From positions 1 through 40,457 of the forward strand of contig CALXOW010000027.1 of assembly GCA_944390115.1 (NCBI GenBank): a stretch of 40,457 nt of DNA, read 5' to 3'. The number at the start of each line of letters is the position of its first letter. The stretch's first letter is position 1. Shown here in pieces: positions 143 to 17,800 of the stretch. The notes under the pieces were generated by a model. The model was not told where the DNA came from. It did no database searches and saw only the letters and a program-made list of their open reading frames with translations. A program made the position numbers and the translations under genes. This DNA is from an uncultured Anaerobiospirillum sp. GTDB taxonomy: Bacteria > Pseudomonadota > Gammaproteobacteria > Enterobacterales > Succinivibrionaceae.

Positions 143-895
143 ATGCTGGGCACCATCATTGCGGTCAAGCAAGACCAAGGCTACGTCGACGTCTACCTCG
201 ATAAAGAGGCGGCCACTTATCGTGCGCCTTGTGCTGATTTTGCCTCAGACCCGGCCTTAGTCGTAGGCAGTGATGCCGAGATTGAGCCTGAGAGTAATCC
301 TTCCTTCTTTAGCCCTGGCAAGGCTAAGCTTACTGCGGTCAAGGCCTTGAACTATGCCAACGACAAGGTTGGTTTAGCCCCTACGCCCCACTATCCTGAG
401 CACGATACGGTGCGCGATGAGCGCCGCTTCTTAATCGCAGCTGAAGGCGGCTCTGAGCGCGAGTGCCGTTCGGCCCTGATCGAAAAGGCCATTGAGTGCA
501 AGGTCAACGCGCTGCTCGACTTAAAGCTGGAGGTAGTCACGCGCCCGGGCGTCAAGACCGCCCTGTTTCGCTACACCGCCCGCCCGGCCTTGGTAAACGG
601 TCCGAAATACCAAGCTCAGCACAACCAGCGCATGGCTATTCCGACCGATCGCGCACGCCGCAATAGCCCGAACGAAGCCATGGTGCGCTACATTCGCGTG
701 CTGCTCATCAGCTTCCTCTTTGTCGCCATCCCTTGCATCATGGCTATGACCAAGAACGGCGTGTTAGCCAGCCCGCTCATCGGCCAAATCATCACCGCTG
801 GCCTCTTGATGCTGTGCATGTTCCTCTTCTTGTTTATCTCCTTCAAGAAGCGCCAGAGCTTTGTCCTAAGCCTCAAAAAGATTAACCACGACTAA
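143..895 (+). CDS. Hypothetical protein with two C-terminal membrane segments
   Basis: This 250-residue protein is not recognised with confidence. Its ATG follows AGGAGG with a 5-base gap, so the start is firm. Residues 1-20 (GTIIAVKQDQGYVDV) look like a beta-strand start reminiscent of OB-fold or cold-shock domains. Residues 93-150 have an alternating helix/strand pattern (ECRSALIEKAIECKVNAL...) loosely recalling YbjQ/RcsF-like domains, where a helix is followed by a 'gaNAl' turn; this is a resemblance only. Residues about 183-203 and 209-233 are strongly hydrophobic and should be two transmembrane helices joined by a short loop, with a basic tail (KKRQ...). The soluble part is probably cytoplasmic. 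It is convergent with the VWA gene and stands alone in the window. Confidence 0.8.
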   Translation: MLGTIIAVKQDQGYVDVYLDKEAATYRAPCADFASDPALVVGSDAEIEPESNPSFFSPGKAKLTAVKALNYANDKVGLAPTPHYPEHDTVRDERRFLIAAEGGSERECRSALIEKAIECKVNALLDLKLEVVTRPGVKTALFRYTARPALVNGPKYQAQHNQRMAIPTDRARRNSPNEAMVRYIRVLLISFLFVAIPCIMAMTKNGVLASPLIGQIITAGLLMLCMFLFLFISFKKRQSFVLSLKKINHD

Positions 896-957
896 GCCCT
901 GGCTCTCAGCGCGTGGCTCCTGGCTAAAAGCTGCAGCTGACACACTTTGCTCAGCGC

Positions 958-975
958 GGCGCGGCAAGCCGCGCC
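958..975. terminator. GC-rich hairpin between convergent genes
   Basis: GGCGCGG (958-964) and CCGCGCC (969-975) form a perfect 7-bp stem around CAAG, between the convergent stops at 895 and 1014. Neither side has a T-run, so it may be a Rho-assisted or bidirectional pause rather than a classical intrinsic terminator. Confidence 0.35.
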
Positions 976-1013
976 TGGGCGCTCGTAGGTACTAAGCTTG
1001 GTGCTCGTTGGGG

Positions 1014-2204
1014 CTAAGCCTTCTTATCGGTGGTGATGTTCTGTGCCACCCAGAAGCTTAAGTCCTGTTTATTGATGACTGCGGCCATGAGATCTGGGAA
1101 CAGATCTGGGGTGCAGGCAAAGGAGGTGACACCGAGGCTGGCCAGATACTGGGCCGCCTTTTGGTCGTAGCTAGGCGCACCATCATCACTTAAGGCCAGG
1201 AGCACCACGACTTGCACGCCACTTGCGACCAATTCGGCAAAGCGCTGATACATGCGCTTGCTATCGCCGCCCTCGTAGAGGTCGGTGATCACTACCATAA
1301 TGGTGTCAGCAGGGCGCGTGATTAAGCCCTTGCTATAGGTCAGGGCCTGCTCAATGTCGGTGCCGCCCCCTAATTGCACGCCTAAGAGCACATCGACCGG
1401 ATCGTGAAGATGGTCGGTTAAATCGACCACGCTGGTGTCAAAGCACACCAAGCGCGTGCTCACCGCCGGAATACCCGCTAAGACCGAGCCGAAGATCGCA
1501 GAGTACACCACCGAAGTGCCCATCGAACCACTTTGGTCGATACACAACACAATGTCCTTGAGCTTGCGCCCTTTGCGCCCATAGCCCACCAATTCCTCAG
1601 GGATAATGGTGTGCAGATCTTGCTGGTAGTGACGCAAATTCTTGCGAATAGTCGCGTCCCAATTGATTTCGTTAGCACGCGGATGGCGCTTGCGCACGGA
1701 CTTATTGAGCGCGCCAATCACCGCTTGCTCGAGCGGAGTACGCAGCTTTTTCTTGAGCTCCTCGACCACCTTAGCAATAATTTGGCGCACCAAATCCTTG
1801 TTTTGCTCCGGCACGAGCTGCCCCAAGCTCATCAAGGTCGCCACCAAGTGCACATCTGGCACCACGTTTTCGAGCATCTCACGCTCAGTTAAGAGCTCAG
1901 TTAAATGAAGACGGTCGATTGCGTCTTGTTGCAACACCTTAACGATCGACTGCGGAAAGAGGTCGCGGATTTCCCCGAGCCAGGTCGCCACATACGGCGC
2001 CGAGCCCTCGCTGCCACCCCGCTGCTTGTCTTGCTTACCATTTTGCCCTCGGCCCTTCTTGTAGCGGCTCATTTGCCCGTCGTAAAGTGCTGATAACGCC
2101 AGGTCAACGCGCTCTTGCTCCTTACTTAAGCTTGCGCCAGTACCATCGCACTTATTATCACCGCCTAACACGAGACGCCAGCGTGTCAGATTTTCACCTT
2201 CCAT
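1014..2204 (-). CDS. VWA domain protein (CoxE/YehP-like), MoxR partner
   Basis: This 396-residue protein has a C-terminal von Willebrand A domain with a complete MIDAS metal site: DxSxS at D223-S227 (DQSGSMG), threonine T282 in GGGTD, and aspartate D308 in ITDLYEGGD. Residues 1-210 are helical and charged, with a Lys/Arg/Gly/Gln-rich stretch at 47-65. VWA proteins encoded beside MoxR ATPases act as Mg-dependent adaptors that couple the AAA+ ring to its target, and that role is inferred here. The start at 2204 is preferred because GAGGAG precedes it with a 6-base gap; the frame stays open to 2255 but that would overlap the previous gene. It is the last gene of the eight-gene cluster, 14 bases after the DUF5682 stop. 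An enterobacterial analogue, recalled from memory, is yehP beside yehL and yehQ. Confidence 0.88.
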   Translation of the reverse strand: MEGENLTRWRLVLGGDNKCDGTGASLSKEQERVDLALSALYDGQMSRYKKGRGQNGKQDKQRGGSEGSAPYVATWLGEIRDLFPQSIVKVLQQDAIDRLHLTELLTEREMLENVVPDVHLVATLMSLGQLVPEQNKDLVRQIIAKVVEELKKKLRTPLEQAVIGALNKSVRKRHPRANEINWDATIRKNLRHYQQDLHTIIPEELVGYGRKGRKLKDIVLCIDQSGSMGTSVVYSAIFGSVLAGIPAVSTRLVCFDTSVVDLTDHLHDPVDVLLGVQLGGGTDIEQALTYSKGLITRPADTIMVVITDLYEGGDSKRMYQRFAELVASGVQVVVLLALSDDGAPSYDQKAAQYLASLGVTSFACTPDLFPDLMAAVINKQDLSFWVAQNITTDKKA

Positions 2205-2218
2205 GATTACTCCTCGCA

Positions 2219-4780
2219 TTAAGCCGCAGGCAAGTTCACACCCAAGAACGAGCACACCAAGTTGATAACTGGGCGTGCCAGCTTATCGTCAGGTAGCCCT
2301 GAGTTTGCTGCCGCCACCGGCAATGTTTGCGTAGCTTTATCCGGGTCAAAGTTCTTGGCTTTTTGGCCGAGCTTAGTGCGTTCATGTTGCTCAAAGGTTG
2401 CAAAGGTACGGCGTAGAATCGGCAGTACCTGCGTAAAGCTCTCGTCGTCGAGATTGCAGATAAAGCTATTGACCAAGCCCCAGAGCACGTCGTCTAACAG
2501 CAGCACCGTGCCCGAGTTCTCAAGGAAGCCCTCAAACCAAAAAGCGATATCGTTAGGGGTATTACCGACCGACGAGTAATAGCTTAAGGCCTGCAAGATG
2601 AGCTCATTAGTGATCGTGTGGTGATCGCGCATCAGGCGCGTGCTACAACCCGAGATAAGCGGATGCACCTTGCCTGAGGCCTGAACCTTGGTAATGAAAT
2701 CATGCCAAATCTTACTGCACGCCTCATCGTTTAAGGTGTTGAGCGCCAGGTTGACCTGACCTAAGTGATCTTTGAGCTCACGGGCGGCATCATCATTGAT
2801 GTTGATACACATGAGAAAGCCACCGACCTTGATACGCGTGAGCATAGTCTCGAGCATGTCGCGCACCGCGCTAAAGTCGAACTTGCGCACATTGCCATAG
2901 CGCACCACCGCACAAAGAGGCGGCAAGCTCTCAAGCAGAACGTGCATATCCGAAGCTTGCGCTGCTAAGTCATTGATGCGCGCACTCATTTGCGCGACCA
3001 AATCAGGCAGATCACAGGTCATAACCTGCTCGAGCAGCTTGGTAATAAACTGGAGCTCGGGATGCTCTTGCATCTGAGCCTGGACATAGTTGACCACTGC
3101 CTCGAGCAAGGTGTTACCGTAGATGGCGCGCTCAATAATGTGTACGATGAGCTCAGGACGATATTCCAGCTGCCACTTTTCTTTGAAGGTACCGCGTCCT
3201 GAGGCTTCTTCTTCCTTGGCCCAGGCAATACCCAGCAGATTCAAGCGATGGAAGAAGACGCTGCGCTCCAAATCAAGGGGCTTGCGCAGATCCAAGATCA
3301 CTTCCTTGATCCCTTCGACAAAAGGCTGGCGCAAATGCTTTTGGGTGGCCGTAATATCAGCTAAGAGCGGCACCATCGGCACCTTGCTGGGAATAGTGCC
3401 AATGCGGTCAGCAATGACCAAGGCGCGCGCGACCGAGCGCAGGACAACGTCATCGCCCATGCCCATCACCGTAGTCACGGCCTCGTTAAACTCCGCGAGC
3501 GTAGGATGATTAAGCCCACGCAGCGCCGCTAAAGTACGGGCTAAGCGCACGGCCTCCATGACATGCGCCACCGAGATGTCAAAGCCCTCGCCGCGCAGCA
3601 CTTCCGCGACGTGCGTTAGCCAGAGCGTACCATCGTCATCAGGGTGCAAGAAGACATGGTGGTACCAGCCTGGAGCGTTGATGCCCGCGCCATAGCCGGA
3701 GTAATAGGAGAGGCGGCTATAAGTCCACGGAATCCAAGTGATCCCGACCTTGTTCTTATTAAGAGGCTTTGGCAGTTCCTTAATTAAGGCGTTATCGTCC
3801 TTGACCTTAAAGGAGGCAAGCTGCGCTAGCGCCGGGACGTGCCAAGCACCGCAGACCACCGCGATCTTGCCCTCGGCCCCAACCTCCTTCACGGCCGCGC
3901 GCAATTCCTTGCGCATCCAAGCCTCGCGCACTAAGTCGCGCTTGCTCGAGTGCTCAGGCAAGTTCTCACGCAAAGCGGTAACTGCCAGCTCAACTGCTGC
4001 AAAGATATCCTTGCTCTCCAAGCGCTGCTCAATGCGACTTTCCCACCATTGCTCACCATCGGCCATGCCCTCAAGCTCGGCGAGGTAATCAAAAGGATCG
4101 GCCACCAAATGCTCTGGGCTATCCTGGGCCTCAGCATCCGCTGGTTCTGCCCCTTGAGCTTCATCTTTGAGCTCAGTCTCAGCGGTAAGTACCTGCCCAG
4201 CATCCTGTTCTTCTTGCTTTGCCGCCGCAGCTTGCCCTGCCGACTGTTCAGCCGCAGTCTGCCCAGCTGTCTGCTCAGCGGCAGCATGCTCCGTCTCTTG
4301 AGCTAATTGCGCCGCAAGTGCCGCAGCGGCCTCCTCTTCCTTGGCTATTTGCGCCGCGCGCACCGCCAAGGTGTAGCTTAGCGGCAGATCAAAGGGACGG
4401 ACTTCGACCCCGTGCTCCTTGCCATAGAGCATGGTTTGCCACTCCGGTGAAAACTCGGCAAAAGGATAGAAGGCTGAGTTCTTAGGCTGATCGCTTTGAT
4501 AGGCCATCAGCGCTACCGGTGGACGCAACATGTCAGGCAGCGGCTGGGGCTTAGTTTCACCTTCCTTAACCTCAGGCTTATCTTCAGCCTTTTGACTTAA
4601 CGCAGGCGGCAGCGGGCTCTCCTGAGCTTGGGTTAAGGTCGGCACAAAGTCGAGCATGGGGGCAACATCGCTGGGCGCCTCAAGCAAAATGAGGTCAGGC
4701 TTGAGCTCATTGAGGTACTGCACCACGTGACGGCATGAGCCTGGACCGTGGTGTCTAATACCTAATAGTGTGACAGACAT
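2219..4780 (-). CDS. DUF5682-family protein with TraB/TIKI-like motifs
   Basis: This 853-residue protein opens with LLGIRHHGPGS (residues 5-15), continues with KPDLILLEAP (28-36), and later has IAVVCGAWHVPAL (306-318). This is the pattern of the TraB/PrgY-TIKI-ChaN-EreA superfamily: an early G-x-x-H-x-G, an acidic 'LLE' strand and a late G-x-x-H. The family match to DUF5682 also rests on its invariable neighbours, a MoxR ATPase and a VWA gene. A metal-dependent hydrolase activity is possible but unproven. Residues about 146-225 are an Ala/Gln/Glu-rich low-complexity insert splitting the N-terminal domain. Residues 330-853 are mostly helical and unrecognised. The ATG is preceded by AAAGGGGG. 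It lies 50 bases after the MoxR gene and is presumably co-transcribed. Confidence 0.82.
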   Translation of the reverse strand: MSVTLLGIRHHGPGSCRHVVQYLNELKPDLILLEAPSDVAPMLDFVPTLTQAQESPLPPALSQKAEDKPEVKEGETKPQPLPDMLRPPVALMAYQSDQPKNSAFYPFAEFSPEWQTMLYGKEHGVEVRPFDLPLSYTLAVRAAQIAKEEEAAAALAAQLAQETEHAAAEQTAGQTAAEQSAGQAAAAKQEEQDAGQVLTAETELKDEAQGAEPADAEAQDSPEHLVADPFDYLAELEGMADGEQWWESRIEQRLESKDIFAAVELAVTALRENLPEHSSKRDLVREAWMRKELRAAVKEVGAEGKIAVVCGAWHVPALAQLASFKVKDDNALIKELPKPLNKNKVGITWIPWTYSRLSYYSGYGAGINAPGWYHHVFLHPDDDGTLWLTHVAEVLRGEGFDISVAHVMEAVRLARTLAALRGLNHPTLAEFNEAVTTVMGMGDDVVLRSVARALVIADRIGTIPSKVPMVPLLADITATQKHLRQPFVEGIKEVILDLRKPLDLERSVFFHRLNLLGIAWAKEEEASGRGTFKEKWQLEYRPELIVHIIERAIYGNTLLEAVVNYVQAQMQEHPELQFITKLLEQVMTCDLPDLVAQMSARINDLAAQASDMHVLLESLPPLCAVVRYGNVRKFDFSAVRDMLETMLTRIKVGGFLMCININDDAARELKDHLGQVNLALNTLNDEACSKIWHDFITKVQASGKVHPLISGCSTRLMRDHHTITNELILQALSYYSSVGNTPNDIAFWFEGFLENSGTVLLLDDVLWGLVNSFICNLDDESFTQVLPILRRTFATFEQHERTKLGQKAKNFDPDKATQTLPVAAANSGLPDDKLARPVINLVCSFLGVNLPAA

Positions 4781-4830
4781 GGCTACCCCCTTTGGGCAAA
4801 ACGTGGGACTTACGTAGGATTAAGCGTGGA

Positions 4831-5910
4831 TTACTCTAAATCACGTGCGGCGCGGTAGATATCATTCCAATCGCTGCGGTGCTTGACCACGGTCTCAAGG
4901 TACTCCTCCCAGACCACCTTGTCTTGGACTGGGTCTTTGACCACGGCACCGTAGATACCTGACACTAAATCGCTCGCGCGAATGACGCCATCACCAAAGT
5001 AACCGGCCATCGCCAGGCCATTGTTGACCACCGAGATGGCCTCAGCAGTGCTTAAGGTGCCCGATGGACTCTTGAGCTTGGACTTGTTATCGGCAGTCTT
5101 ACCCTCACGCAGCTCACGGAAGATCGTGACTACCCGCTCGATTTCGGCCAGGGCTGGCTTTTCAGCAGGCAGCTGCATCACCTCTTCAAAGCTCTCGACG
5201 CGGCGGCGTACGATATCGACTTCTTCTTGCGCCGTAGCCGGTAGCGGCAGGATCACGGTGTTGAAGCGACGCTTTAAGGCGCTGGAGAGCTCGTTGACGC
5301 CCTTATCACGGTTATTGGCGGTCGCAATCACGTTAAAGCCGCGAATTGCTTGGACTTCCTCGTTGAGCTCTGGGATCGGCAACGCCTTTTCCGACAAGAT
5401 GGTGATCAAGGTGTCTTGGACATCCGAGCCAATACGGGTGAGCTCTTCGATACGGGCAATCTTACCTTGTTGCATCGCGGTATAGACTGGGGTGCGCACC
5501 AGGGCGCCCTCAGATGGGCCTTCGGCGATGAGCTTGGCATAATTCCAGCCGTAGCGGATCGCTTCTTCACCGGTACCGGCGGTACCTTGAACAATCAAGG
5601 TGGAATTGCCCGAAATGGCAGCGGCTAAGTGCTCGGAGACCCAGCTCTTGGCGGTACCCGGCAGGCCATATAAGAGCAAGGCACGATCGGTGACCAAGGT
5701 GGCAACCGCAATCTCAATTAAGCGGCGATTGCCGATGTACTTAGGGCTGACCTCAAAACCGTTAGGCAAGGTACCACCCATAATATAGGTCACGACCGAC
5801 TGGGGCGAGAGCTCCCAGTTTTCTGGTACGGGATTCTTTTCAGCTTGCTTGAGCTCATGGAGCTCCTCTGCAAATTGCTGTTCGGCGTGTTGCCGCAGTA
5901 AGTTGCTCAT
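4831..5910 (-). CDS. MoxR-family AAA+ ATPase
   Basis: This 359-residue AAA+ ATPase has a Walker A motif GLPGTAKS at 82-89. The Walker B region is IARIEELTRI (151-160), in which EE replaces the usual DE; I recall this as characteristic of MoxR proteins linked to DUF5682 and SWIM genes. It is followed by SDVQDTLITILSEK (162-175), sensor 1 at ATANNRDKG (196-204) and an arginine-finger candidate in LKRRFN (212-217). A helical lid follows. Such ATPases form hexameric rings that remodel proteins together with VWA partners. The length is typical of the family (about 330-370). The start has an upstream AAGGGGA. It sits 27 bases after the SWIM gene and 50 before the DUF5682 gene, so the four genes read as one transcript. 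Confidence 0.92.
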   Translation of the reverse strand: MSNLLRQHAEQQFAEELHELKQAEKNPVPENWELSPQSVVTYIMGGTLPNGFEVSPKYIGNRRLIEIAVATLVTDRALLLYGLPGTAKSWVSEHLAAAISGNSTLIVQGTAGTGEEAIRYGWNYAKLIAEGPSEGALVRTPVYTAMQQGKIARIEELTRIGSDVQDTLITILSEKALPIPELNEEVQAIRGFNVIATANNRDKGVNELSSALKRRFNTVILPLPATAQEEVDIVRRRVESFEEVMQLPAEKPALAEIERVVTIFRELREGKTADNKSKLKSPSGTLSTAEAISVVNNGLAMAGYFGDGVIRASDLVSGIYGAVVKDPVQDKVVWEEYLETVVKHRSDWNDIYRAARDLE

Positions 5911-5937
5911 GACATTCCCCTTATTAATGAAAACTGG

Positions 5938-7599
5938 TTAAGACTTAGGCTCAGAATAAGTAAGTGACAGGTACCGACCTTCAAAGACGATACCGCACAA
6001 AATAGTGTCCACGTCGTTTAAGAGCACGATCGCGGTGAAAGGTGCGCCCCCGGTGTGCATCAAGCACGTCACCACTTGGTCATGCAGCACTTCCTTGCGC
6101 CCAGATAAGAGCCGCGCCCGCCCCTCACGATCGCACAGGTACCACGTACCGGTACGCGGTCTGCCTTGCTGGGCAAAGTTCGCCTGCTCAATGATGACCG
6201 GATAGAAATCGGCAAAAGGATTTTGCGCTAGGTACTGCGACATACCCTCAACCGCAGGTGCCAAGCCCGCAACTCCCTTGAGCGCGCGCCAGCAGGCTTG
6301 AGACTGAGGCTCTGCCGCCGTCGTAACGACTCCCTGCAGCGCCTGCTCAATCCCCGCTTCATCAGCCGCACTTAAAGTGCGGGGAGGGGAGGACGCAAAG
6401 CTCATTGATTCTTCACGCGCCGCCTCTTGCTCAGCCTCCTCCTCCACTAAGAAGTCACTCGAGCAAGTTTCAACCTGCTCCGATTGGGCCAACAGGGTGC
6501 GCTCTTCTAACAAGATGCGCGGTACTTGCGGCACGCCCGGATATGGGTAAACCTTAGCTTGCAGCACTGTCCCTACAGGCAATGGACGCTCGGCCATGGC
6601 GGCGGCCGCTTGGGCATTAGACGGCACAAAGAGCATATAGGCGCCAAACTCCGCGCGCGCGACGCGATAGCAAAAGTATTTGTGGTTGGTGCCATTGGAG
6701 ACCGCGTAAGGAATATCGGCCAGCACTAACACCGTCTCAGGCGCAACATCCTTACCTCCTTGGGCTACGATGGCCGCAGCCAGCACCTCCTCCTTGGGCG
6801 TCGGAATCCCCACCAAGCGGGCAATTTCGCTTTGCCAGGCCGGAGCCAATTGCTCACGATTTTCAAAGGCCGAGGCAATGAGATAGAGCCGCGACAGATG
6901 CTTTAAGTACTGACGGCGCCCTTCGTTGGTGGAGCAGTCATATTGCAAGGCCGCACCCAGTATATTGGCCAAAGCGGGGGCCTTGGCATCAACCAAGCGC
7001 CGCTTAAGATGCTCAATATCCTTAAAGCGCCGGTCCATGACGTTGAGCAAGCCATTGCGCATACAGTCCTTAAGCCAGAGCTTAAGTTCAGCGATACCTT
7101 CTTCAATCGCGGCCTCGCGCTTGAGCAAGGTCTTGCTCTTAGCCTTAGGGGCTTTACCAGCAGCCACCGCAGCGGCCTGTTCTTGCGCTTTAACCAGAGC
7201 TTCCTTGGCCTTGTCGAGCTTTTCTTGCGCGCGCTGTTCCTTCTTCTCAGCATTAGCCGCGCGCTTGTCGCGCCACTCGGCGACATGGGGCGGTTCAGTC
7301 CCAGCCACAAACCAATCTTTATGCTCGACAAAGTTCAAGAGCAAAGCCAAGCCATGCTTGCATGGGAACTTGCGGCTTGGGCACGAGCACTTAAAGGCGA
7401 TATCCGGCTGGGACATATCGACCATGGCGACATAAGGGTTCTTGCCACTACCTTGGCACTCACCCCACAAAGCATGCTCTGAATACTCAAGCTTAGGCCA
7501 CTTAGCTTGCTTGACTAATCCCTTAGCTGACTTAAGCGAAGAGGCATCGGGTGCAAGCGACTCAACCTCGCTAGACGTTAATTTGGCATCGGTTCCCAC
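5938..7599 (-). CDS. SWIM zinc-finger protein (YehQ-like)
   Basis: This 553-residue protein begins with GTG, supported by AGGAGAGG just upstream. The SWIM motif CxCx6CxH is complete: C71, C73, C80, H82 in KCSCPSRKFPCKH. SWIM fingers bind zinc and mediate DNA or protein contacts. A charged Ala/Lys/Glu coiled coil follows (about 108-165), then a helical region and a C-terminal portion with an Ala/Glu-rich linker around 385-420. The C-terminal 120 residues (WYLCDREGRARLL, then an alternating hydrophobic stretch) may be a beta-rich domain of unknown role. It is the first gene behind the internal promoter at 7634-7661 and is followed 27 bases later by the MoxR ATPase, matching the SWIM-MoxR pairing seen in several phyla. 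Confidence 0.88.
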   Translation of the reverse strand: MGTDAKLTSSEVESLAPDASSLKSAKGLVKQAKWPKLEYSEHALWGECQGSGKNPYVAMVDMSQPDIAFKCSCPSRKFPCKHGLALLLNFVEHKDWFVAGTEPPHVAEWRDKRAANAEKKEQRAQEKLDKAKEALVKAQEQAAAVAAGKAPKAKSKTLLKREAAIEEGIAELKLWLKDCMRNGLLNVMDRRFKDIEHLKRRLVDAKAPALANILGAALQYDCSTNEGRRQYLKHLSRLYLIASAFENREQLAPAWQSEIARLVGIPTPKEEVLAAAIVAQGGKDVAPETVLVLADIPYAVSNGTNHKYFCYRVARAEFGAYMLFVPSNAQAAAAMAERPLPVGTVLQAKVYPYPGVPQVPRILLEERTLLAQSEQVETCSSDFLVEEEAEQEAAREESMSFASSPPRTLSAADEAGIEQALQGVVTTAAEPQSQACWRALKGVAGLAPAVEGMSQYLAQNPFADFYPVIIEQANFAQQGRPRTGTWYLCDREGRARLLSGRKEVLHDQVVTCLMHTGGAPFTAIVLLNDVDTILCGIVFEGRYLSLTYSEPKS

Positions 7600-7633
7600 G
7601 ATTTCCTCTCCTTATCAAACCTAACCTGTCTCT

Positions 7634-7661
7634 ATAATAGCATAGTTCATTTTAAATACAA
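7634..7661 (-). promoter_or_regulatory. Internal promoter before the SWIM gene
   Basis: Read on the minus strand, TTGTAT (7661-7656) is followed after 16 bases by TATTAT (7639-7634), itself preceded by TGC, so both a -35 and an extended -10 are present. It lies in an unusually AT-rich 114-base gap between the first DUF5691 stop and the SWIM start. It would let SWIM, MoxR, DUF5682 and VWA be expressed apart from the four DUF5691 genes. Confidence 0.6.
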
Positions 7662-7713
7662 CTACTTTTTAGCGAAAAGTTGTGAGTCGCATCATTAATC
7701 AAGCGTACACAGA

Positions 7714-9867
7714 CTAAGCTTCAAAGGCAATCAAACGAGCCCGCTCTACCTCAGCGGCACAAAGCCTCTTAAGGCGCTCAGCGGCGCCGCAGGCCTCAAC
7801 TAAATGCTTAATCGTATCCACCACGTCCTTGCGCACCTGAACTTCACGGGAATAACGCTCCCGCAGCGCGATATCCTCACGTGCTCGCGCAATCTTCAGC
7901 GGCTCAATCAACTTTTCACGCTCAGCAATTTCCGTGTTGAGCTCAGAAATCCGCTCTTTGAGGCGCAGACAGAACAAAGCTTTGACCTTAGGCTCAAGCC
8001 CTAAACCGATAGCACTAAAGCGTGGCTCGAAATAATGGTTGTAGCTGACCCTGCCAGCCTTAGCCAAAGATTTTGAGGCAAAGCAGGCCAAAAGTTGCTC
8101 ACTGAAAAAGGCGCTAAATTTAGGGCCCCAGCAGGCAGCAGGTTCTGAAGCTAAGGATAGCGTCCAATTACACAGGCTCCACAGGTGATGAGACTCTGTG
8201 GTGCTGACCTGCTGATATAGTTCAGGATTGCGCACATAAGGCAAATGCTCACGCTCAGCATAGCTGGCCCCAGCAATGTAATCGTGCACCACATTTAGTG
8301 GCAGCATCGCCCCACAGTGCTGATAGAAGGCCTTGAGATAGACCTCGCCCAACTCAAAGCGAATACGCGTAATGAGATAAGCAAAGCAATTGGCAAAGCG
8401 CCAGCTGTGGTAGCCTTGCTTTTGCACAATCCATCCTGGGAAGTGCTGGGCAAAGGTTGCAAAGAGCTTATCGGCATCAACCGCATCATCGCCACAGCGC
8501 TCCAGGGCAAAAAGCTCAAACCATAAAGCCGGGGGCACCAAGAAGGTAAAGCCTCTGAAGTAGGCCTCTTCGCTCCCTCGGTAATGAGCAGCATTAGGGT
8601 ACTTCTTGAGATAATCCAAAGCATCCTTAAGCTCAGGAAAGAAGGTGCACAGCGCCGTCACCACTTCCTCACTACCAGGATCAACCTGATAGGCGAGATT
8701 CAACTTATCTTTTTTCCAATTGGCCTTATAGACCTTGCGCGCTAGCGCCGACATTTCCTCTTGCCAACCGACGCCGGGCAGCAGGCGCAACAATTGAGAA
8801 GCAGCCGTCTTAACCGTAACCGCGCGATCTTTGGCCACTAAATCCCCAAGCCACGAGGCCAGACGCTGCGTCAAAGCAGAGTCATGAGCCCAAGTCCCGA
8901 CTTGATAGCAATGAGTGAGCTGCGCGATCCAATTATTCAAGAGTAATTCCAAGATCTCAGTGCGCTCCCTGGCGGCCAAGGTCTTAAAGTCCGGCAAGAT
9001 CAAATCCAGCACGCGCTCTAACTCAAAGCGTGTGAGCAAGGCCGCCACCGCGCCTTTACGCTCAGCGGCGCTGCCGTGACGCCATTGCGTCGTCAGCTGC
9101 GCATACCAAGCCTCCGTGCCCGGCTCAGCTGTAGGCTCAACGCTACTTTCATCTGCTCCTGCCTCAACATCTCCAGAGTATGCGGCAGCCGCCGACAGGT
9201 AAGGCAGAAGATAGTGCGCGCGTTGCGGCAAGAATGCCAAAGGCAAAGCAGCGTAAAGCGAACTAAGCTCAGGACGCAGCTTAAAGTAAGCATCCAAAAA
9301 AGACTTAAGCTGGGGCAAAGGAACCTTAAGACCAGTGCCATGTAGCCGCGCCATAATCGCCAGCCAGGCGACCGAATTGGAGCGATAACCATTGAGCAAG
9401 GCCATAATCGCAGAAGACAAGTAACGCTGACCTGAGGGCTCGGGGGCACACGGTGCAACCGGCAGCGGTCCTTGGTGCAACTTAATGCGCGTAACCAAGG
9501 TCGCAGCATCATCTGACGCTGCGTTCTCGGCTGCACTCTTCCCTGCAGCGGCAGCAGTGGCCTGCCCTGCAGCATCAGCAGTGGCCGACCCGGCAGCATC
9601 AGCATGGGCCGCTAAGGCCGCGCGATACTGCATCATTTGTTCAGGAGAAAAGCTATTGACCCGGCAGTTGTTATAAGCCGACTCATAGGCAAAGACGAGG
9701 CTCGTCAGCGCCCAAGCGGTATCAGCTGGCTCTTGCCCTAAAGCTGTAATCGCGGCGGCCGCCTCGTGCAGCGCCTCTGGCAGCGCAGCGCTATTGAGCG
9801 CCTTATTATCGATGCCAACTAAGGCGGTGTTTAAGACCTCATCGCTCACGTAAAAAGGACGTTCCAT
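7714..9867 (-). CDS. DUF5691-like helical-repeat protein, paralogue 1
   Basis: This is a 717-residue mostly helical protein. It has the family's N-terminal VLNTALVGID (11-20) in place of the usual 'LLGT', and a HEAT-like segment TVKTAASQLLRLLPG (351-365) of the form V-x-x-x-A-A-x-L-L-R-x-L-P-G, the signature I associate with DUF5691. A WGPKFS motif and a C-terminal coiled coil (about 610-690) are shared with the other three paralogues. The start at 9867 is chosen because AGGGAG ends 6 bases upstream; the ATG at 9873 would touch the Shine-Dalgarno. Residues 86-125 are an Ala-rich insert encoded partly by 24-bp DNA repeats. It is the last of the four paralogues and lies closest to the SWIM gene. 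Function is unknown; a scaffold or adaptor for the MoxR ring is inferred. Confidence 0.8.
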   Translation of the reverse strand: MERPFYVSDEVLNTALVGIDNKALNSAALPEALHEAAAAITALGQEPADTAWALTSLVFAYESAYNNCRVNSFSPEQMMQYRAALAAHADAAGSATADAAGQATAAAAGKSAAENAASDDAATLVTRIKLHQGPLPVAPCAPEPSGQRYLSSAIMALLNGYRSNSVAWLAIMARLHGTGLKVPLPQLKSFLDAYFKLRPELSSLYAALPLAFLPQRAHYLLPYLSAAAAYSGDVEAGADESSVEPTAEPGTEAWYAQLTTQWRHGSAAERKGAVAALLTRFELERVLDLILPDFKTLAARERTEILELLLNNWIAQLTHCYQVGTWAHDSALTQRLASWLGDLVAKDRAVTVKTAASQLLRLLPGVGWQEEMSALARKVYKANWKKDKLNLAYQVDPGSEEVVTALCTFFPELKDALDYLKKYPNAAHYRGSEEAYFRGFTFLVPPALWFELFALERCGDDAVDADKLFATFAQHFPGWIVQKQGYHSWRFANCFAYLITRIRFELGEVYLKAFYQHCGAMLPLNVVHDYIAGASYAEREHLPYVRNPELYQQVSTTESHHLWSLCNWTLSLASEPAACWGPKFSAFFSEQLLACFASKSLAKAGRVSYNHYFEPRFSAIGLGLEPKVKALFCLRLKERISELNTEIAEREKLIEPLKIARAREDIALRERYSREVQVRKDVVDTIKHLVEACGAAERLKRLCAAEVERARLIAFEA
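9541..9612. repeat. Three 24-bp tandem repeats inside DUF5691 paralogue 1
   Basis: Units at 9541-9564, 9565-9588 and 9589-9612 share the form CCYKGCAGCRKCAGCA followed by a GGCC-like end. They encode the Ala/Gly/Thr-rich part of an insert near residues 86-109. A multiple of 3 keeps the frame, so copy number could change without breaking the gene. Confidence 0.7.
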
Positions 9868-9935
9868 TGGCATCTCCCTTATGTTCGGTTCCGGCGCCCT
9901 TATCAGGCACGGCAGTTAGCCCAGTAGCAAGCAAA

Positions 9936-11768
9936 TTAATGACCAACTTCCTTCGCAACCAGCTGCTTGAGCTCGGTGCCGTGAGTAAGCTCTGCGAGCA
10001 AACGACTAAGACGCGCGCATTCATGCTGGCATTGGTCAAGTTCACGCTTGATACGATCATGACGCGCCCGCTCCAGGCGAGCAGACGCCCCCTCAGCTGC
10101 GACCTCTGCTTTAATACGATTGAGCTCAGTGCGCTTCCCAGCCAAACGCTCTTTGAGTTCCTGCACGGTCTGCTCCCGCACCGCGCTATCAAGGGCCAAG
10201 GCGACCGCCTGGCAACACCGCTCATCTGGGTCTGGAGTCGTGATCAGCACATCGGCCATCTTGCGGCTGAACTTAGGCCCCCAGTGGGCAGCTGACTGCG
10301 TAACAAAGGTTTCGGCATCATTGAAAATTGCCACACGATAAGGGTCGCTCACCCATTTAATGCGCAGCGGATAGTTTTCAGGATCGGTCAAGAAAGGCCA
10401 AGACTCACGCTCGTCGTAGCTGGAGAGCCGAGCTAAGTCCAACAGCACCGGTGCCGGTAGCTTCTGAGCAAAGATTGAGAAGAATAAAGCCAACGCCTCT
10501 TGACCTAATTCGTACTTGATACGTGTGATGAAGTACAGCACGGCCGGACGCAAGCTGTGCTCCTGAAACAATGTCCAATCTTGGAACCCTGCAGCGATAG
10601 CCGTAAACAGTGTCTTAAGCTTCCCAGATATCCTCTCAAGCACGCCGAACTTAAGCCATGCCTGCGGTGAGACCAAGAATGGTATAGCATGCTGATACGA
10701 AGGCACTAAGCTCAGCTCAGGAAAGCAGCGCGCCCAAACTTCATTAGCTGCAGTACGGTCGCTTAAGCTAATGGTGAGCTTATCGTGAGAACCAGTTAGC
10801 TTAAGCACAGAGGGCAAAAGAGCCTCACAATCAGCTTCCCAGCTGGAGTGCGGCACCAGCCGCAGCAAGCGGGCGGCGGCGGCCCTAACCTCAGAGGCAA
10901 CCCCGACCGCTTGAAGCTGTACCCCGAGCAATTGGTTAAGCCCAGCTAATACTGGCGCGGACTTAGCCCACCAATTATGCTGATAGCCAAAGCTGACCTG
11001 CAATAGCCATTGCACACGGATAAGCTCCAAGAGCTCAACCTGCTCCTTTACGCTCAAAGCTCCTATGTCGCGAGTCAGCCAAGTCAGGAGTAACTCCATA
11101 TCGTGGCGGCGCAGCAAGGAACAAACAGCCGCGCGCCGGGCCAAGGCATCACCACCCAACCACTGCCGTTCCTCAGAGGAGACACCTTCATCCTCAGATG
11201 GTGCAGCTAAAGCCACCCTATCCCCTGCCACTTGGTACTCAGGCAACTGGAACTTAACCGGCCCTAACAGCTCCAGCGGTAAGGTCGTGTACAGGTCATG
11301 CAGTCGTGGCAGTAGGCGCAAGTAGTGCACCAAGAAGACGACGCGTGCGTCCGGTGGCACCACCAACCCAGCCTCAACTAATTGCGGTAAAAAGGTAAGC
11401 CAGAGAGCTGCGCCCGCCTGGGACTTATTGAGCTCTGTCATCATGCGCTCTGATAGATAGCTCGGCGAGCCATCAATTTCAACAAATTGGGCCGGTGGAA
11501 GCAGCTGGGCTGAGCCCAACGCACCACAAATTGCGGCCTGAAGCTCGGTGCACAATTGCTGAGCCTTAGTCGTGTCAAAATGCACGTTCACAGTCTGCTC
11601 ATAGGCAGCCTGTAAGGCTTGCAACGCACACTGCGTCTCAAGCATGCGCGCCTCAGGCTCAAGTAGATTATGAAGCACCAGACCCGGCAAGTTCTCGAGC
11701 ACGAAACTGTTGAGTTGGGCATGAGGATCTAAAATGTCTAGTTCGTCATCAAGATCTAAAGAGTCCAT
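9936..11768 (-). CDS. DUF5691-like protein, divergent short paralogue 2
   Basis: This 610-residue protein is the most divergent of the four. It keeps the HEAT-like segment EVRAAAARLLRLVPH (293-307), the preceding EQVELLELI...QWLLQVSFGYQ helices (242-263), the WGPKFS motif and a C-terminal coiled coil (about 530-600). It lacks the N-terminal INDELLKxALLGT segment and begins instead with an acidic stretch, MDSLDLDDELDILD. A perfect Shine-Dalgarno GGAGGT lies 7 bases before the ATG. It starts 21 bases after paralogue 3 and ends 68 bases before the start of paralogue 1. Loss of the first motif suggests a different partner or role from its neighbours. Function is unknown. Confidence 0.75.
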   Translation of the reverse strand: MDSLDLDDELDILDPHAQLNSFVLENLPGLVLHNLLEPEARMLETQCALQALQAAYEQTVNVHFDTTKAQQLCTELQAAICGALGSAQLLPPAQFVEIDGSPSYLSERMMTELNKSQAGAALWLTFLPQLVEAGLVVPPDARVVFLVHYLRLLPRLHDLYTTLPLELLGPVKFQLPEYQVAGDRVALAAPSEDEGVSSEERQWLGGDALARRAAVCSLLRRHDMELLLTWLTRDIGALSVKEQVELLELIRVQWLLQVSFGYQHNWWAKSAPVLAGLNQLLGVQLQAVGVASEVRAAAARLLRLVPHSSWEADCEALLPSVLKLTGSHDKLTISLSDRTAANEVWARCFPELSLVPSYQHAIPFLVSPQAWLKFGVLERISGKLKTLFTAIAAGFQDWTLFQEHSLRPAVLYFITRIKYELGQEALALFFSIFAQKLPAPVLLDLARLSSYDERESWPFLTDPENYPLRIKWVSDPYRVAIFNDAETFVTQSAAHWGPKFSRKMADVLITTPDPDERCCQAVALALDSAVREQTVQELKERLAGKRTELNRIKAEVAAEGASARLERARHDRIKRELDQCQHECARLSRLLAELTHGTELKQLVAKEVGH

Positions 11769-11789
11769 AATTCACCTCCGCAATGAGAT

Positions 11790-13853
11790 TTAGGCAGCAG
11801 ACCGCGCCCGCGCACACATTGCCTTGAGCTCGTCAGCCCACTCAAAATAACGCAGCAACAGCTGTAAGTCGTGACGCGCAATGCGGCTGTAGGTTAAAAG
11901 AGAGTCGTACTGATCCAGCATACCGTGAGCCTCAAAACGCGTAATCTCCTCAGTAAAGGCAGCAATGCGCTCCTTGATGCGTGGTTGCGCGTCCTGACGC
12001 ACCTCTGGGTCTAAAGACAAGGCGATCACGCAGAGGTAAGGCGCTTGGTACTTCTTAAAGTAAAAGTAAGCGTTCGGGCGCTGGCCTACCACAAATTGCG
12101 CCAAGAACTGCTCGAAGTAAAAGGAGCTAAACTTCGGGCCCCACGAGCTGAGCGGCTCAGTAAAGAACTTGGTCGTGGACTTCATCAAGAGCATCATCGG
12201 ATTTTCCCACAGGCTGTAGTTGAAGCGATGAGGACCACTCACCAGCGGGCACAGCTCACGATCAGCGTAGCTTAACTGCCCCAGCATCAAGAGACGGGTT
12301 TCGTAGAGAATATGTTGTTCACCACAGTGAGCAAAGAGAGCTTCAAAGAAAACTGGTCCCAACTCGAGCTGAATACGCTGGAGCAGGTAGGGCACGTAGA
12401 TCTTGAGCTCATCATCGCGGTATCTAATGTAGTCCCAGCCTGGAAAGTGCTCTTTGAAGGCAGCAAAAAGACGCGTCGCATCATGGTTCGCATTACCGCT
12501 GCGCTTGAGGCAGAAGAGCTCAAACCACATCTCAATGGGCAAGAAAAAGGTCAAGCACGAGATCATTTCACGATCCGTATTGCTAAGCTTCATACGACGC
12601 GAATGCTCGGTGTAATCGCGGGATGCACCAAGTTCAGGAAAAAAGGTCACCAGCTCGGCGGCAATTGCTTGGTGCGAACGTGACAACTCACGTTTGAGCA
12701 CCGGCTTACGCCGTCCGCTGCGCACCGAGAACACCTTGCGTACAAATTCTACAATTTGCGCTTCCAAGCGCCCGCCCGGCAGCATGCGTAAGAGCTGTGC
12801 GGCCGCCGTCTTCACCTCCAGCACGCGCTCCGAGCGCACCACGCTCATGAGCCAACGCTCGACCCGCTGCCCTACTGAACTGGCTGTCCTCAAGGTCCGC
12901 GCGCCCTCACTTTGCACGCTGACTGCGGCTTGAGTGGCAATACTCAGTTTAACGGCGGCAGGAGTTTTTAGCGTCACCTCCACTTGCGCGGCTACATCCG
13001 CCATACCTACGGGCTTGGACTCAAGCGTTGAGGTGGCAACCTCAGCGCCGTAGATTTTGCTCAAAGCCTCCACCAAGGCTTGTCCTAAGGCCTCAGCACT
13101 CAATTGCGGCGGTGCAGCTTTAGTGACTCCCACCGGCAAGAAACCATCTTGATAACCTGCGGACAGAAACTTGAGCCAGTGGGCTTGCCACAACTGTAAA
13201 ATGCCTAAACGTACGGCTTTGGGTAGCGCGCAAAAAGACGGCTCAAGCAAGTCCAAAGCAGCATCATAGACTCCCTGCTCCAAGAGCTCAGCAATCTTAG
13301 CCTTACGCTCGCTGGCACCCAAGTCATCCCTTGACTGAGGTTCAAGTACCAAGCCATCATCAGAGGCATATTGCAACCAAAAGCGAGCCTTGCGATCCAA
13401 GAACTCCACTGGGAAATCCTTATACAAAGGGGGCAGACTCGGGCGCAAACGCTTAAAGTTACGCAGAAAAGCCCGAGAGCAGTGCGGCGGTACCTTAAGA
13501 CCGCTGCCACGGAGCCGTACTAAGAGAGCCGTCCACGCCACTGCATTGATCGTCGGTGCAGTCAGTCGGGACATTAATTCCGGTGCGATATAGCGCTCAC
13601 CTGCCGTCTGCGGCGGTGTGACCGGAACAATCTCACTTGAGACTTCAACTAAGCCCTCGTTGCTGGCACGCTCCCAGGTTGAGCACAGATTAATGATGGT
13701 AAAAAGTGCCGCCTCACTATCACCACCCGCCAAGAGTTCAGTAGCAGCATCTTGGAGCGCAACAGGCAAAGCTGTCACCTCAAGGGGATGATGGCTGGTT
13801 CCCAAGAGGGCGGCTTTCAGAAGCTCATCGTTGATATAGGCTGGGCTATCCAT
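11790..13853 (-). CDS. DUF5691-like helical-repeat protein, paralogue 3
   Basis: This 687-residue protein starts at ATG 13853 behind GGAGGTG; the frame extends upstream to 13904 but that would run into paralogue 4. Motifs are INDELLKAALLGT (7-19), the conserved SERKAKIAELLEQG helix (181-194), EVKTAAAQLLRMLPG (346-360) and WGPKFSSFYFEQ near the C-terminus. Residues about 240-325 form an insert, rich in Val, Ala, Ser and Thr, that is shared only with paralogue 4. Over the first 240 residues it aligns with paralogue 4 without gaps at what looks like well over half identity, so the two are a relatively recent duplication. It is 20 bases downstream of paralogue 4. Function is unknown. Confidence 0.8.
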   Translation of the reverse strand: MDSPAYINDELLKAALLGTSHHPLEVTALPVALQDAATELLAGGDSEAALFTIINLCSTWERASNEGLVEVSSEIVPVTPPQTAGERYIAPELMSRLTAPTINAVAWTALLVRLRGSGLKVPPHCSRAFLRNFKRLRPSLPPLYKDFPVEFLDRKARFWLQYASDDGLVLEPQSRDDLGASERKAKIAELLEQGVYDAALDLLEPSFCALPKAVRLGILQLWQAHWLKFLSAGYQDGFLPVGVTKAAPPQLSAEALGQALVEALSKIYGAEVATSTLESKPVGMADVAAQVEVTLKTPAAVKLSIATQAAVSVQSEGARTLRTASSVGQRVERWLMSVVRSERVLEVKTAAAQLLRMLPGGRLEAQIVEFVRKVFSVRSGRRKPVLKRELSRSHQAIAAELVTFFPELGASRDYTEHSRRMKLSNTDREMISCLTFFLPIEMWFELFCLKRSGNANHDATRLFAAFKEHFPGWDYIRYRDDELKIYVPYLLQRIQLELGPVFFEALFAHCGEQHILYETRLLMLGQLSYADRELCPLVSGPHRFNYSLWENPMMLLMKSTTKFFTEPLSSWGPKFSSFYFEQFLAQFVVGQRPNAYFYFKKYQAPYLCVIALSLDPEVRQDAQPRIKERIAAFTEEITRFEAHGMLDQYDSLLTYSRIARHDLQLLLRYFEWADELKAMCARARSAA

Positions 13854-13873
13854 AGACACACCTCCGTCCCCTA

Positions 13874-15952
13874 TTAAGCCGCCGCTGGCAACGCCCGCGC
13901 ACAAAGCTCATTGAGCTCATCGGCCCAGTCAAAGTAGCGCAGCAGCATCTGCAAATTGTAATGCGCTGTACGGCTATCGTTGCGCCGGTAGTAATCATGT
14001 GAGCCTTGTTGCTTTAAGCGGGCAAGATCATCTGCATAGACATCAATGAGTTGCTTGATGCGATCGATTGAGCGCGCTCGTACCTGCGGATCTAAGGACA
14101 AAGCCAATGAGCAGAGAGTGGGATCGTGCGAATCGAACTCCAAGAATGCAATGTGCTGTCCTACTGTAAACTGATCAAGGTACTGCCCCAAATAAAACTC
14201 ACTTACTTTGGGCCCCCAGCACGCAAGCGGCTCCGTAAAGAACGCTTGCGCTGATTTTTCGAAGAGCCACATCTGATGATGACAATCCCCTTCACCATAA
14301 TCGAATCTAGCCGCAGCAGAGCCACTTACCAAAGGACAAGACTCACGCTCCTCGTAGCTTAAGCGGCTCAGAAATTCGATGCAGGAATCCTTCCAGCAAC
14401 GGTGTTTCTGGCACCGATCGCAGAAAGCGGCAAAGTACGTGGGTCCCATCTCAAACTGTGTGCGCAGAGCAACATAGTGAATAAAAATCTCCTTGTCAAA
14501 ACCGTCTCGCTCAAGGAAATCCCAGCCCGGAAAGCAACCAGAAAAGTAGTTAAAAAGGTTGCTGGCATCAAAACTATCATTGCCACTGCGTTTCAACTTA
14601 AAGAGCTCAAACCACTGCTGCGGCGGCAAGAACAAGGTCACAGCTTTGATATAGAAGCGGTCCATATAATTCAACTTGGCGCGGCCCGCTTCTCGGACGT
14701 AATAAGGATCTTCACTGAGCTCAGGGAAGAAAGCAACCAAACTTGCAGCAACTTCCTGGTGTGAACGAGCCAGACCACGCCTGATGAAGGGGTAGCCGTC
14801 TCTATTCACCGAGAAGACCTTACGCGCAAACTCGACCATATGCGACTCAAAACGCCCGCCGGGCAGCATTCGTAACAACCGGGCAGCAGCCTCCTTAACC
14901 TCGCACACCTGCTCAGAGCACATCACGCTCAAGAGCCAATACTCCACCCGCTGCATTACCGAGCTTGCAGGCCCCAAAGGATATAGACAGTCGCTTTGTA
15001 CCCTGATGCTAGCTTGGGCAGTAATAACAAGCTTGCCCGCAGTTGGAGTCTGTAACGCCACCTCAACCTGCGCTGCCACATCCGACATCTCAAGTTGCTT
15101 ACTATCAACGGTGGACGTCACGACCTGTGCTCCGTAAGTCTTGCTTAAGAACTCCACGAACGCTTGGCCCAAAGACTCAGCGTCAAACGGCACGTTATTA
15201 GCTTCGACCTTAGCAGGCAAGAGGCCGGAGCGATAGCCAAAGCACAGGAACTCAAACCAATGCGCCTCCCACAGCTGCAAAATGCCCAAGCGCAAATCTT
15301 GGGAAAGCCCCATAAAACTGCCTTCGAGCAAGTCCAATGCTGCGTCATAAGCATGCTGCACGAGCAGTTCAGCCACCTTAGCCTTACGCTCGGAGGAGCC
15401 CAAGTCATCCCAGGAACGTGGCTCAAGCATTAAGTCCTCATCTGAGGTGTACTGCTCCACAAAGCGCGCTCTAATCCCCAAGAATTCAATAGGAAAATCC
15501 CGGTAGAGCGGATGCAGCTCAGAACGCAAGTTCTTGAAATTGCGCAGAAAATCCTGGGAGCAGTGCGACGGCACCTTAAGCCCCGTACCTCTAAAGCGTG
15601 CCAAGATCGCCGTCCACTCTACCGCACTAATATCAGGATCGAGCAGCTTGGTCATCACTTCAGCAGGGAGATAGCGCTCCCCTACCACCTGCGGCGGCTT
15701 AACCCGAGCAATCTTGCTTGAGACCTTCACCAAGCCCTCGTTGCTGGCACGCTCCAAGGTCGAGTTCAAGTTAAGGAAAGTGAACAGAGCCAACTCAGGC
15801 TCATCACGTGCCAAGATCTGAGTAGCGGCAACTTGGAGCGCCGCAGGCAAAGCCGTCACCTCAAGCGGCTGATGCCGGGTTCCTAAAAGCGCGACTTTCA
15901 GCAGCTCATCGTTGATATAGGCCGGACCAGTCTTAACCTTATTTCTAGCCAT
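13874..15952 (-). CDS. DUF5691-like helical-repeat protein, paralogue 4 (first gene of the locus)
   Basis: This 692-residue protein is the promoter-proximal member of the eight-gene cluster. Its ATG is preceded by GGAGGTG. Motifs are INDELLKVALLGTRHQPL (13-30), GSSERKAKVAELL (185-197), EVKEAAARLLRMLPG (351-365) and WGPKVSEFYLGQ near residue 590. It shares the 240-325 Val/Thr/Ser-rich insert with paralogue 3. The N-terminus has an extra basic stretch, MARNKVKTGP, that paralogue 3 lacks. DUF5691 proteins are known to me mainly as neighbours of SWIM, MoxR and VWA genes; no activity is established. The dyad at 15995-16016 lies in its leader or promoter and could control the whole cluster. Confidence 0.8.
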   Translation of the reverse strand: MARNKVKTGPAYINDELLKVALLGTRHQPLEVTALPAALQVAATQILARDEPELALFTFLNLNSTLERASNEGLVKVSSKIARVKPPQVVGERYLPAEVMTKLLDPDISAVEWTAILARFRGTGLKVPSHCSQDFLRNFKNLRSELHPLYRDFPIEFLGIRARFVEQYTSDEDLMLEPRSWDDLGSSERKAKVAELLVQHAYDAALDLLEGSFMGLSQDLRLGILQLWEAHWFEFLCFGYRSGLLPAKVEANNVPFDAESLGQAFVEFLSKTYGAQVVTSTVDSKQLEMSDVAAQVEVALQTPTAGKLVITAQASIRVQSDCLYPLGPASSVMQRVEYWLLSVMCSEQVCEVKEAAARLLRMLPGGRFESHMVEFARKVFSVNRDGYPFIRRGLARSHQEVAASLVAFFPELSEDPYYVREAGRAKLNYMDRFYIKAVTLFLPPQQWFELFKLKRSGNDSFDASNLFNYFSGCFPGWDFLERDGFDKEIFIHYVALRTQFEMGPTYFAAFCDRCQKHRCWKDSCIEFLSRLSYEERESCPLVSGSAAARFDYGEGDCHHQMWLFEKSAQAFFTEPLACWGPKVSEFYLGQYLDQFTVGQHIAFLEFDSHDPTLCSLALSLDPQVRARSIDRIKQLIDVYADDLARLKQQGSHDYYRRNDSRTAHYNLQMLLRYFDWADELNELCARALPAAA

Positions 15953-15994
15953 AAGTGCACCTCCGCTACCTGTTCCTCGATAAAGAACGATTTA

Positions 15995-16016
15995 GTTACT
16001 ATGACTCCATAGTAAC
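15995..16016 (-). promoter_or_regulatory. Perfect 9+9 dyad, candidate operator of the eight-gene locus
   Basis: GTTACTATG (15995-16003) and CATAGTAAC (16008-16016) are exact inverted copies separated by ACTC. The centre is 54 bases upstream of the first DUF5691 start. The surrounding 130 bases are AT-rich and unlike the genes. A weak -10-like TACTAT lies inside the dyad on the minus strand, but I find no convincing -35, so the promoter itself is not placed. Confidence 0.5.
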
Positions 16017-16175
16017 ACATAATTTATTGATGCGCTTAGATTTTTGATAAAAATTTTGATAGCTTATAAAACAATAAGCATGCTTTTTGCTACAGATTAC
16101 CTTAATATACTGGTCAAAGGCCCTATCCAGGCCATTTGCGGCCAACGCTGCACCTTACTACCGCCAAAAGCACAA

Positions 16176-16206
16176 CGCCGCAGACATGCGGTGGCATGCT
16201 GCGGCG
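16176..16206 (-). terminator. Strong hairpin terminator of the tyrA-DUF945 unit
   Basis: CGCCGCAG (16176-16183) and CATGC (16185-16189) pair with GCATG (16194-16198) and CTGCGGCG (16199-16206), with one bulged A and a 4-base loop. Read on the minus strand the stem is followed by TTGTGCTTTT. It lies 30 bases after the DUF945 stop. Confidence 0.7.
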
Positions 16207-16235
16207 CTGGCTTATTGAACTTGGTTTATTACTTG

Positions 16236-17786: not shown

Positions 17787-17800
17787 TTTCAACTCCTAAG

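Follow-up and report, generated by a model that had tools for sequence, protein, structure and literature searches.

In the NorQD system, as described in the accessible parts of the two reports, a MoxR ring engages a partner with a von Willebrand factor A (VWA) domain and force is passed to a client bound at the metal-ion-dependent adhesion site (MIDAS) of that partner (PMC9976466; PMC13036017). Jumbo phages, according to the accessible part of another report, carry a MoxR-VWA pair whose VWA protein is fused to a metallopeptidase (PMC7824862), and the pairing of such a motor with a peptidase therefore has a precedent. The MoxR-VWA ternary conflict systems, in the available text of their description, add further components to MoxR and VWA and are predicted to act in conflict (PMC7159879). 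Here we describe a locus at positions 1014-15952 of a 40,457-nucleotide stretch from an uncultured Anaerobiospirillum sp. (contig CALXOW010000027.1), which we call the window. Eight open reading frames (ORFs), all on the minus strand, encode four large DUF5691 proteins (a to d), a SWIM zinc-finger protein, a MoxR ATPase, a DUF5682 protein and a VWA protein. Five of the eight genes belong to a widespread and rigid cassette, SWIM-DUF5691-MoxR-DUF5682-VWA; the cassette is ordinary, and the unusual part of the locus is the DUF5691 array. Tentatively, and giving it a little less than an even chance, we read the locus as an ATP-driven remodelling machine with diversified DUF5691-SWIM adaptors and a DUF5682 hydrolase, used against foreign elements.

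The distribution of the cassette was examined in contigs scanned with the window MoxR. The best 80 of 563 loci were kept, a set biased toward MoxR similarity; one locus from the same genus as the window (L069) was set aside and the other 79 were annotated with profiles derived from these loci in successive rounds, matches of at least 40 bits being counted. All five genes are present in 69 of the 79 loci. Of the ten partial loci, the contig is shorter than 8 kilobases (kb) in five, the contig or stretch measures 12-14 kb in two, and L094, L141 and L144 are full 21-kb stretches. The first-pass annotation, which had taken the eight genes for one machine, had proposed counting the DUF5691 genes per locus: there is exactly one in each of the 69 full cassettes, and the idea of one machine is supported by the recurrence of the five-gene order across phyla and by the fusion of SWIM and DUF5691 in some relatives. 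In 14 of the 79 loci a DUF4132 gene comes directly after VWA in a full cassette; five further loci have it at another position of the run or with a partial cassette.

A tblastn search with MoxR against plasmids gave 45 records, of which seven neighbourhoods were opened first. The five-gene order with one DUF5691 was found in Bacteroidota, Deinococcus, Rhizobium and loci titled Acidobacteria and Thermoflexales. Hymenobacter has the same order, but its DUF5682 is split over several frames and its VWA was found only by the locus-built model; in Methylosinus the first four cassette genes are annotated, the Methylobacterium cassette (L047) was read by locus-built models only, and so was the Fusobacterium locus (L046), where DUF5691 had no match. 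SWIM and DUF5691 were not found in the Streptomyces locus (L044). DUF4132 variants of the gene set occur in Agrobacterium vitis and in E. coli (yehH-yehQ); the former, on a plasmid (L045, 422-19053), reads MoxR-DUF5682-DUF4132-VWA-SWIM and has a type VI secretion tip gene on the same stretch. A survey that started from DUF5691 instead opened 16 other places with Pfam DUF5691 matches, leaving out the window and the query genome. The first-pass annotation had regarded homologues scattered away from SWIM, MoxR and VWA genes as one observation that would speak against it; above the Pfam cut-off, a full five-gene cassette with one DUF5691 surrounds 10 of the 12 places outside the window's genus, the other two being solitary, and the four places below the cut-off comprise one DUF5691-MoxR-DUF5682 group and three sites where no cassette was found. 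A full-length MoxR relative (H31, 57% identity) also lies at 12858-13934 of MT835988.1, a 14-kb record from human faeces labelled Bacteriophage sp., which may be a bacterial contig.

Among the four large proteins of the window, only paralogues a (13874-15952, minus strand, 692 amino acids (aa), HEAT-like) and b (11790-13904, minus strand, 704 aa from TTG) match Pfam DUF5691 (PF18944) above its cut-off of 27, with 29.7 and 28.0 bits, respectively. For c (9936-11768, minus strand, 610 aa) and d (7714-9873, minus strand, 719 aa, the copy adjoining SWIM), Pfam gave no DUF5691 match, what it did report being at chance level (E 0.02 or worse). Identity to paralogue a is 56% for b, 24% for c and 31% for d, and a WGPK motif is invariant across all four. 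Profile-profile comparison by hhalign links the d, a/b and c groups to ordinary DUF5691 with probabilities of 99.1, 98.8 and 95.2%, respectively. Judged by these profile links, all four proteins are homologous, as the first-pass annotation had claimed from shared HEAT-like and WGPK motifs, c and d being diverged members of the family. The predicted structure of d is all-helical, with a mean predicted local distance difference test score (pLDDT) of 84.7.

The DUF5691 tree places all 18 copies from the window's genus in one clade against 18 ordinary ones, an unrooted split with support of 100/100, by which the family has been multiplied and diversified within this genus. The array is not confined to the window: G003, another genome of the genus (we number these G001, G002 and so on), has at least four DUF5691 copies (three complete and one 483-aa ORF) plus an edge fragment, and several matches are present in G002, G008, G009 and G010; the arrays run into contig ends and the counts are minima. 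Members of the a/b clade occur also in G003 and G009, and b is 85% identical to one G003 copy; c pairs closely with a copy in G003 and distantly with others in G010 and G003; the clade of d, itself assigned by the tree, unites copies from G003 and G009 (starred) with those from G002 and G008 (93/96). Next to d stands a type c gene in the window and G003, but another type d gene in G002, a mild argument against a fixed hetero-oligomer. The first-pass annotation had spoken of a multiplied "recognition or scaffold subunit". The multiplication stands, and between the two roles the differing array sets give a modest preference for recognition, modest since the arrays end at contig ends; the array suggests that DUF5691 chooses what the machine acts on. 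In genome scans, which scored up to three candidates per genome with a Pfam model that is insensitive to diverged copies and picks up just one of the four copies in the window, DUF5691 gave one match each in 9 of 398 Pseudomonadota, the window genome among them, and in 9 of 395 genomes from the phylum to which a Bacteroides genome belongs, again counting that genome.

The SWIM protein (5938-7599, minus strand, 553 aa) has a Pfam SWIM domain (23.9 bits against a cut-off of 19.6, E 2.9e-5) with a CxCx6CxH motif. In G002 and G008, related proteins of 1234 and 1245 aa consist of DUF5691 and the C-terminal part of the SWIM protein, the zinc motif being absent, and G002 also has an 891-aa ORF, truncated at the end of its contig, in which SWIM with its zinc motif precedes DUF5691, i.e., the opposite order. 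The DUF5691 parts of these fusions rest on a locus-built model: Pfam recognises SWIM alone in the 891-aa ORF and nothing in the 1234-aa protein, and in hhalign the two proteins of about 1.2 thousand aa reach a probability of 83.8 (67 columns) against ordinary DUF5691 and of 100 against the d group. Because natural fusions occur in two opposite orders, DUF5691 and SWIM probably form one module and act together; as evidence for joint action the fusions are good, not final.

The motor part of the locus has the features that define a MoxR-VWA chaperone pair, a MoxR AAA+ ATPase with Walker A and sensor 1 and, in the same run, a VWA protein with a complete MIDAS. The MoxR protein (4831-5910, minus strand, 359 aa; Pfam AAA_5, 2.5e-36) carries the Walker A sequence GLPGTAKS, kept in 102 of 102 relatives, and the sensor 1 motif ATANxR, found in 99 of them. 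The VWA protein (1014-2255, minus strand, 413 aa from GTG; VWA_CoxE, 7.7e-49) is of the CoxE type and has the MIDAS DQSGS...T...D, with DxSGS present in 93 of 94 relatives. The translations thus contain the Walker A, the intact MIDAS, the complete SWIM motif (CSC-CKH) and the GxxH motifs of DUF5682 (GIRHHG and GAWH) that had been reported in the first-pass annotation; the Walker B position reads IEE and not DE (acidic pair EE), as in 72 of 102 relatives. The gaps taken from the ORF table, from gene a through VWA, are -31, 21, 62, 114, 27, 50 and -37 bases. Starts at ATG codons 17 codons into gene b and the VWA gene turn the two overlaps into +20 and +14, with which the described spacing of mostly 14-70 bases agrees. 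An internal promoter had been placed in the 114-base gap; a consensus scan found no promoter-like site there, the region 900-16300 holding nine sites against 7.3 expected.

The DUF5682 protein (2219-4780, minus strand, 853 aa; Pfam 3.4e-224) is predicted to have an alpha/beta N-terminal half, with Tiki-like motifs, and a helical C-terminal half (pLDDT 84.8). The Tiki superfamily is defined by two conserved histidine motifs plus a glutamate in an alpha/beta fold. Ten DUF5682 residues (R9, H10, E34, E113, D131, E251, R285, E286, G311 and H314) are invariant in a 36-member alignment and again in 42 members that include E. coli YehM and other distant proteins, and regular expressions for the motifs match 83-89 of 96 relatives. 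In hhalign, the N-terminus aligns with TraB at E 0.0026, placing GIRHHGPGS..LLEA on the first TraB motif, and with ChaN at E 0.0018, placing REAxMR..GAWH on the ChaN motif, compared with E 0.08-0.26 for five other profiles (MoxR, VWA, two DUF5691 sets and DUF4132) and 5e-5 for TraB against ChaN themselves. Pfam ChaN and TraB are matched in two and one of the 36 members, with best E values of 0.015 and 0.028, respectively. A Tiki-type hydrolase is a likely but unproven identity for DUF5682.

The locus lies between two core genes present in 11 of 11 genomes of the genus, one for a 250-aa protein on the left (143-895, plus strand) and one for a 518-aa protein on the right (16236-17792, minus strand), and the site between them is variable. 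It is empty in two of the 11 genomes, G005 and G006, where about 0.1-0.4 kb separate the flanks. In G003, G009 and G010 the flanks are on different contigs and the cassette adjoins the 250-aa gene, and in G002 and G008 the cassette genes are on contigs other than that of the site. In both G003 and G009, the stretch between a DUF5691 gene and the 518-aa gene holds McrC together with McrB-like AAA_5 genes (McrC being named by Pfam and the McrB label being our own), and in G004, whose flanks are likewise split between contigs, the 518-aa gene has HsdS- and HsdM-like genes of type I restriction next to it; the site therefore holds restriction genes in three genomes, but other inserts too. In G009 (L274, G009:C27, 2198-9151), McrC is followed by several tandem McrB-like AAA proteins (528, 565 and 525 aa), which gives a second example of multiplication next to a DUF5691 gene. 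Elsewhere in the window, Wadjet-type JetC, JetB and JetA lie in a row at 20281-27613 (PADLOC E 2.5e-304, 1.1e-40 and 5.7e-104), JetD not being recognised among the scanned neighbouring ORFs.

The nearest named relative of the window MoxR is that of 'Candidatus Anaerobiospirillum stercoravium' (98% identity), and gut Bacteroides loci follow at 86-87%. A quick tree of MoxR, DUF5682 and VWA from 47 loci, rooted at its midpoint, puts the genus in a starred clade that also holds Bacteroidales, Cardiobacteriaceae and Neisseria, where it is the sister of Bacteroidales (support 90, not starred); a four-protein profile occurs in 6 of 57 genomes of its family, all six from this genus. Since the cassette core nests in that clade, the cassette was probably acquired horizontally by the genus, the direction of transfer being inferred. 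A different MoxR-DUF5682-VWA set is present in G001, G005 and G007 (loci L066, L067 and L068), where it includes giant DUF5682 proteins (1168-1319 aa); in the core tree the sets of L066 and L068 are nearer the E. coli branch.

We propose that MoxR would form the motor ring of a protein-remodelling machine and that, by analogy with NorQD, VWA would be its co-factor, with the MIDAS contacting the client. SWIM and DUF5691, whose association is suggested by the natural fusions, would make up the client-recognising adaptor, and the client would be handed to DUF5682, which, by its motifs, may act on it as a Tiki-type hydrolase or peptidase. After horizontal acquisition the adaptor gene would have been amplified into a diversified array, with one motor serving several DUF5691 adaptors. 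The diversification, at a site that also has restriction genes, would most likely be used against foreign elements; of all the steps this one is the least secure, as none of the PADLOC models fits and the relative in E. coli is core. The defence role is thus suggested, not shown. A stronger version, a hitherto undescribed diversifying immune machine in which the MoxR-VWA motor and the Tiki-type hydrolase stay constant and work with an expandable set of interchangeable DUF5691-SWIM recognition subunits, the widespread single-adaptor cassette being ancestral, appears rather unlikely to us; its analogue would be the swapped specificity subunits of restriction systems.

It is possible, although doubtful, that the locus encodes instead a housekeeping MoxR-VWA chaperone for maturation or stress, which assembles or repairs host enzyme complexes, the array serving endogenous clients or forming a hetero-oligomeric scaffold. 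The accessible parts of the literature provide models: NorQD loads nitric oxide reductase with iron (PMC13036017; PMC9976466), RavA-ViaA acts on respiratory complexes, and DdrO depletion raises DUF4132 and WGR-MolR-like genes in D. radiodurans (PMC8533742). Moreover, yehLMPQ is core in E. coli, matched in 5301 of 5426 genomes (5162 at 80% coverage or more), as for a core function. A housekeeping role fits poorly with the patchy DUF5691 (in the scans above, with their insensitive model), with the empty alleles of the site and with the different array composition of G002 and the window. The E. coli count also weighs against a diversified anti-foreign machine, and so do the following observations. 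PADLOC run on the eight proteins (E 0.01) gave only two weak IetA matches, for MoxR. The cassette flanks in Hymenobacter, Deinococcus and Rhizobium hold no annotated defence cluster, save a PDDEXK nuclease in Hymenobacter, and the variable site takes an AraC-type regulator in G001 and G002 (in G008, an ORF of like length with a near-identical start) and a transposase-like ORF in G007. The solitary DUF5691 genes (L290, G612:C9, and L291, G471:C52) have no cassette partner within about 8 kb, and the Acaryochloris locus L144 holds MoxR alone on a full 21-kb stretch. The Tiki link is weak, at 12-15% hhalign probability; fold searches with DUF5682 were filled by its C-terminal repeat, and the giant proteins of L066-L068, left out of the DUF5682 alignments, have neither GAWH nor REAxM by regular expression.

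Rates of change bear on the proposed machine in both directions: the order of conservation and the higher DUF5691 ratios speak for it, the ratios staying below 1 and the signs of recombination against it. Identity falls in the order MoxR, VWA, DUF5682, SWIM, DUF5691 in 19 of 19 locus pairs, which share members and are not independent (d stands for DUF5691 in the window); Bacteroidota pairs have the same order, so DUF5691 is fast in general and not accelerated only in this genus. Between the window and G003, the ratio of nonsynonymous to synonymous substitution rates (dN/dS) is 0.18 for b, 0.45 for c and 0.30 for d (a has no orthologue for this comparison), 0.08 for SWIM, 0.06 for DUF5682 and 0.01 for MoxR, the VWA proteins being identical; it is below 1 for every gene tested. 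The synonymous rate (dS) itself climbs from 0.02 in VWA to 0.46 in gene b, and window positions 28060-40137 show 86-92% identity in their two main G003 matches, by which the VWA end is a recent recombination tract. Recombination thus shapes the contrast between the window and G003, and identity alone is no sign of selection. A further alternative is that the DUF5691 copies are drifting duplicates, with d at work and a, b and c as remnants or gene-conversion stock. The presence of the d clade in most genomes of the genus (G002, G003, G008 and G009) and the position of arrays at contig ends, as for repeats, are in line with this, but all four window frames are intact over 610-719 codons and the ratios for b, c and d amount to purifying constraint, which makes drift improbable.

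A distant relative of the machine is present in nearly all complete E. coli genomes, and the cassette itself occurs across several phyla. The array shows which subunit nature varies and the fusions which two probably associate, while the invariant DUF5682 residues offer direct mutants, so that function can be tested in laboratory strains. In the literature searched, which excludes most subscription journals, DUF5691 and DUF5682 are named in no paper, and none on MoxR/SWIM/VWA, yeh, DUF4132/MolR or Tiki is recognisable as dealing with this cassette; an older review of the SWIM domain reportedly may mention MoxR-linked operons.

Compared with known systems, the window core has the same five families in the same order as the ordinary cassette annotated in Deinococcus and Rhizobium, which has a single DUF5691, mostly of about 490 aa, between SWIM and MoxR, whereas the window has four of 610-719 aa upstream of SWIM. 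NorQ/NorD is similar in its MoxR ring and MIDAS-bearing VWA partner (a sequence search matched NorQ chains, after midasin) and differs in its client; the accessible parts of its reports mention no SWIM, DUF5691 or DUF5682 partner. The likeness to the ternary conflict systems extends to a bpMoxR match just above the cut-off (27.3 bits against 27). None of their third components (VMAP, iSTAND, FtsH or a beta-propeller) was detected by Pfam in the eight proteins at E 0.1 or better, and in the available main text on those systems (PMC7159879) the word SWIM has no occurrence. The window MoxR is 40% identical to E. coli YehL and shares partners with it, and may belong to the YehL subfamily of MoxR, as named in the accessible part of PMC3893208. 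The E. coli run yehH-yehI-yehK-yehL-yehM-yehP-yehQ unites MoxR, DUF5682, VWA and SWIM, as in the window, but with SWIM last and with large DUF4132 genes in front, at the place of the array, the profile link between DUF4132 and DUF5691 being weak (probability 31%). Best E. coli places at 90-95% identity number 2172 of 5306 records for the DUF4132 block against 924 of 5303 for yehLMPQ; at the place where the window has its array, E. coli thus has the more diverged block of its run, a difference part of which may be explained by the yehH pseudogene of K-12.

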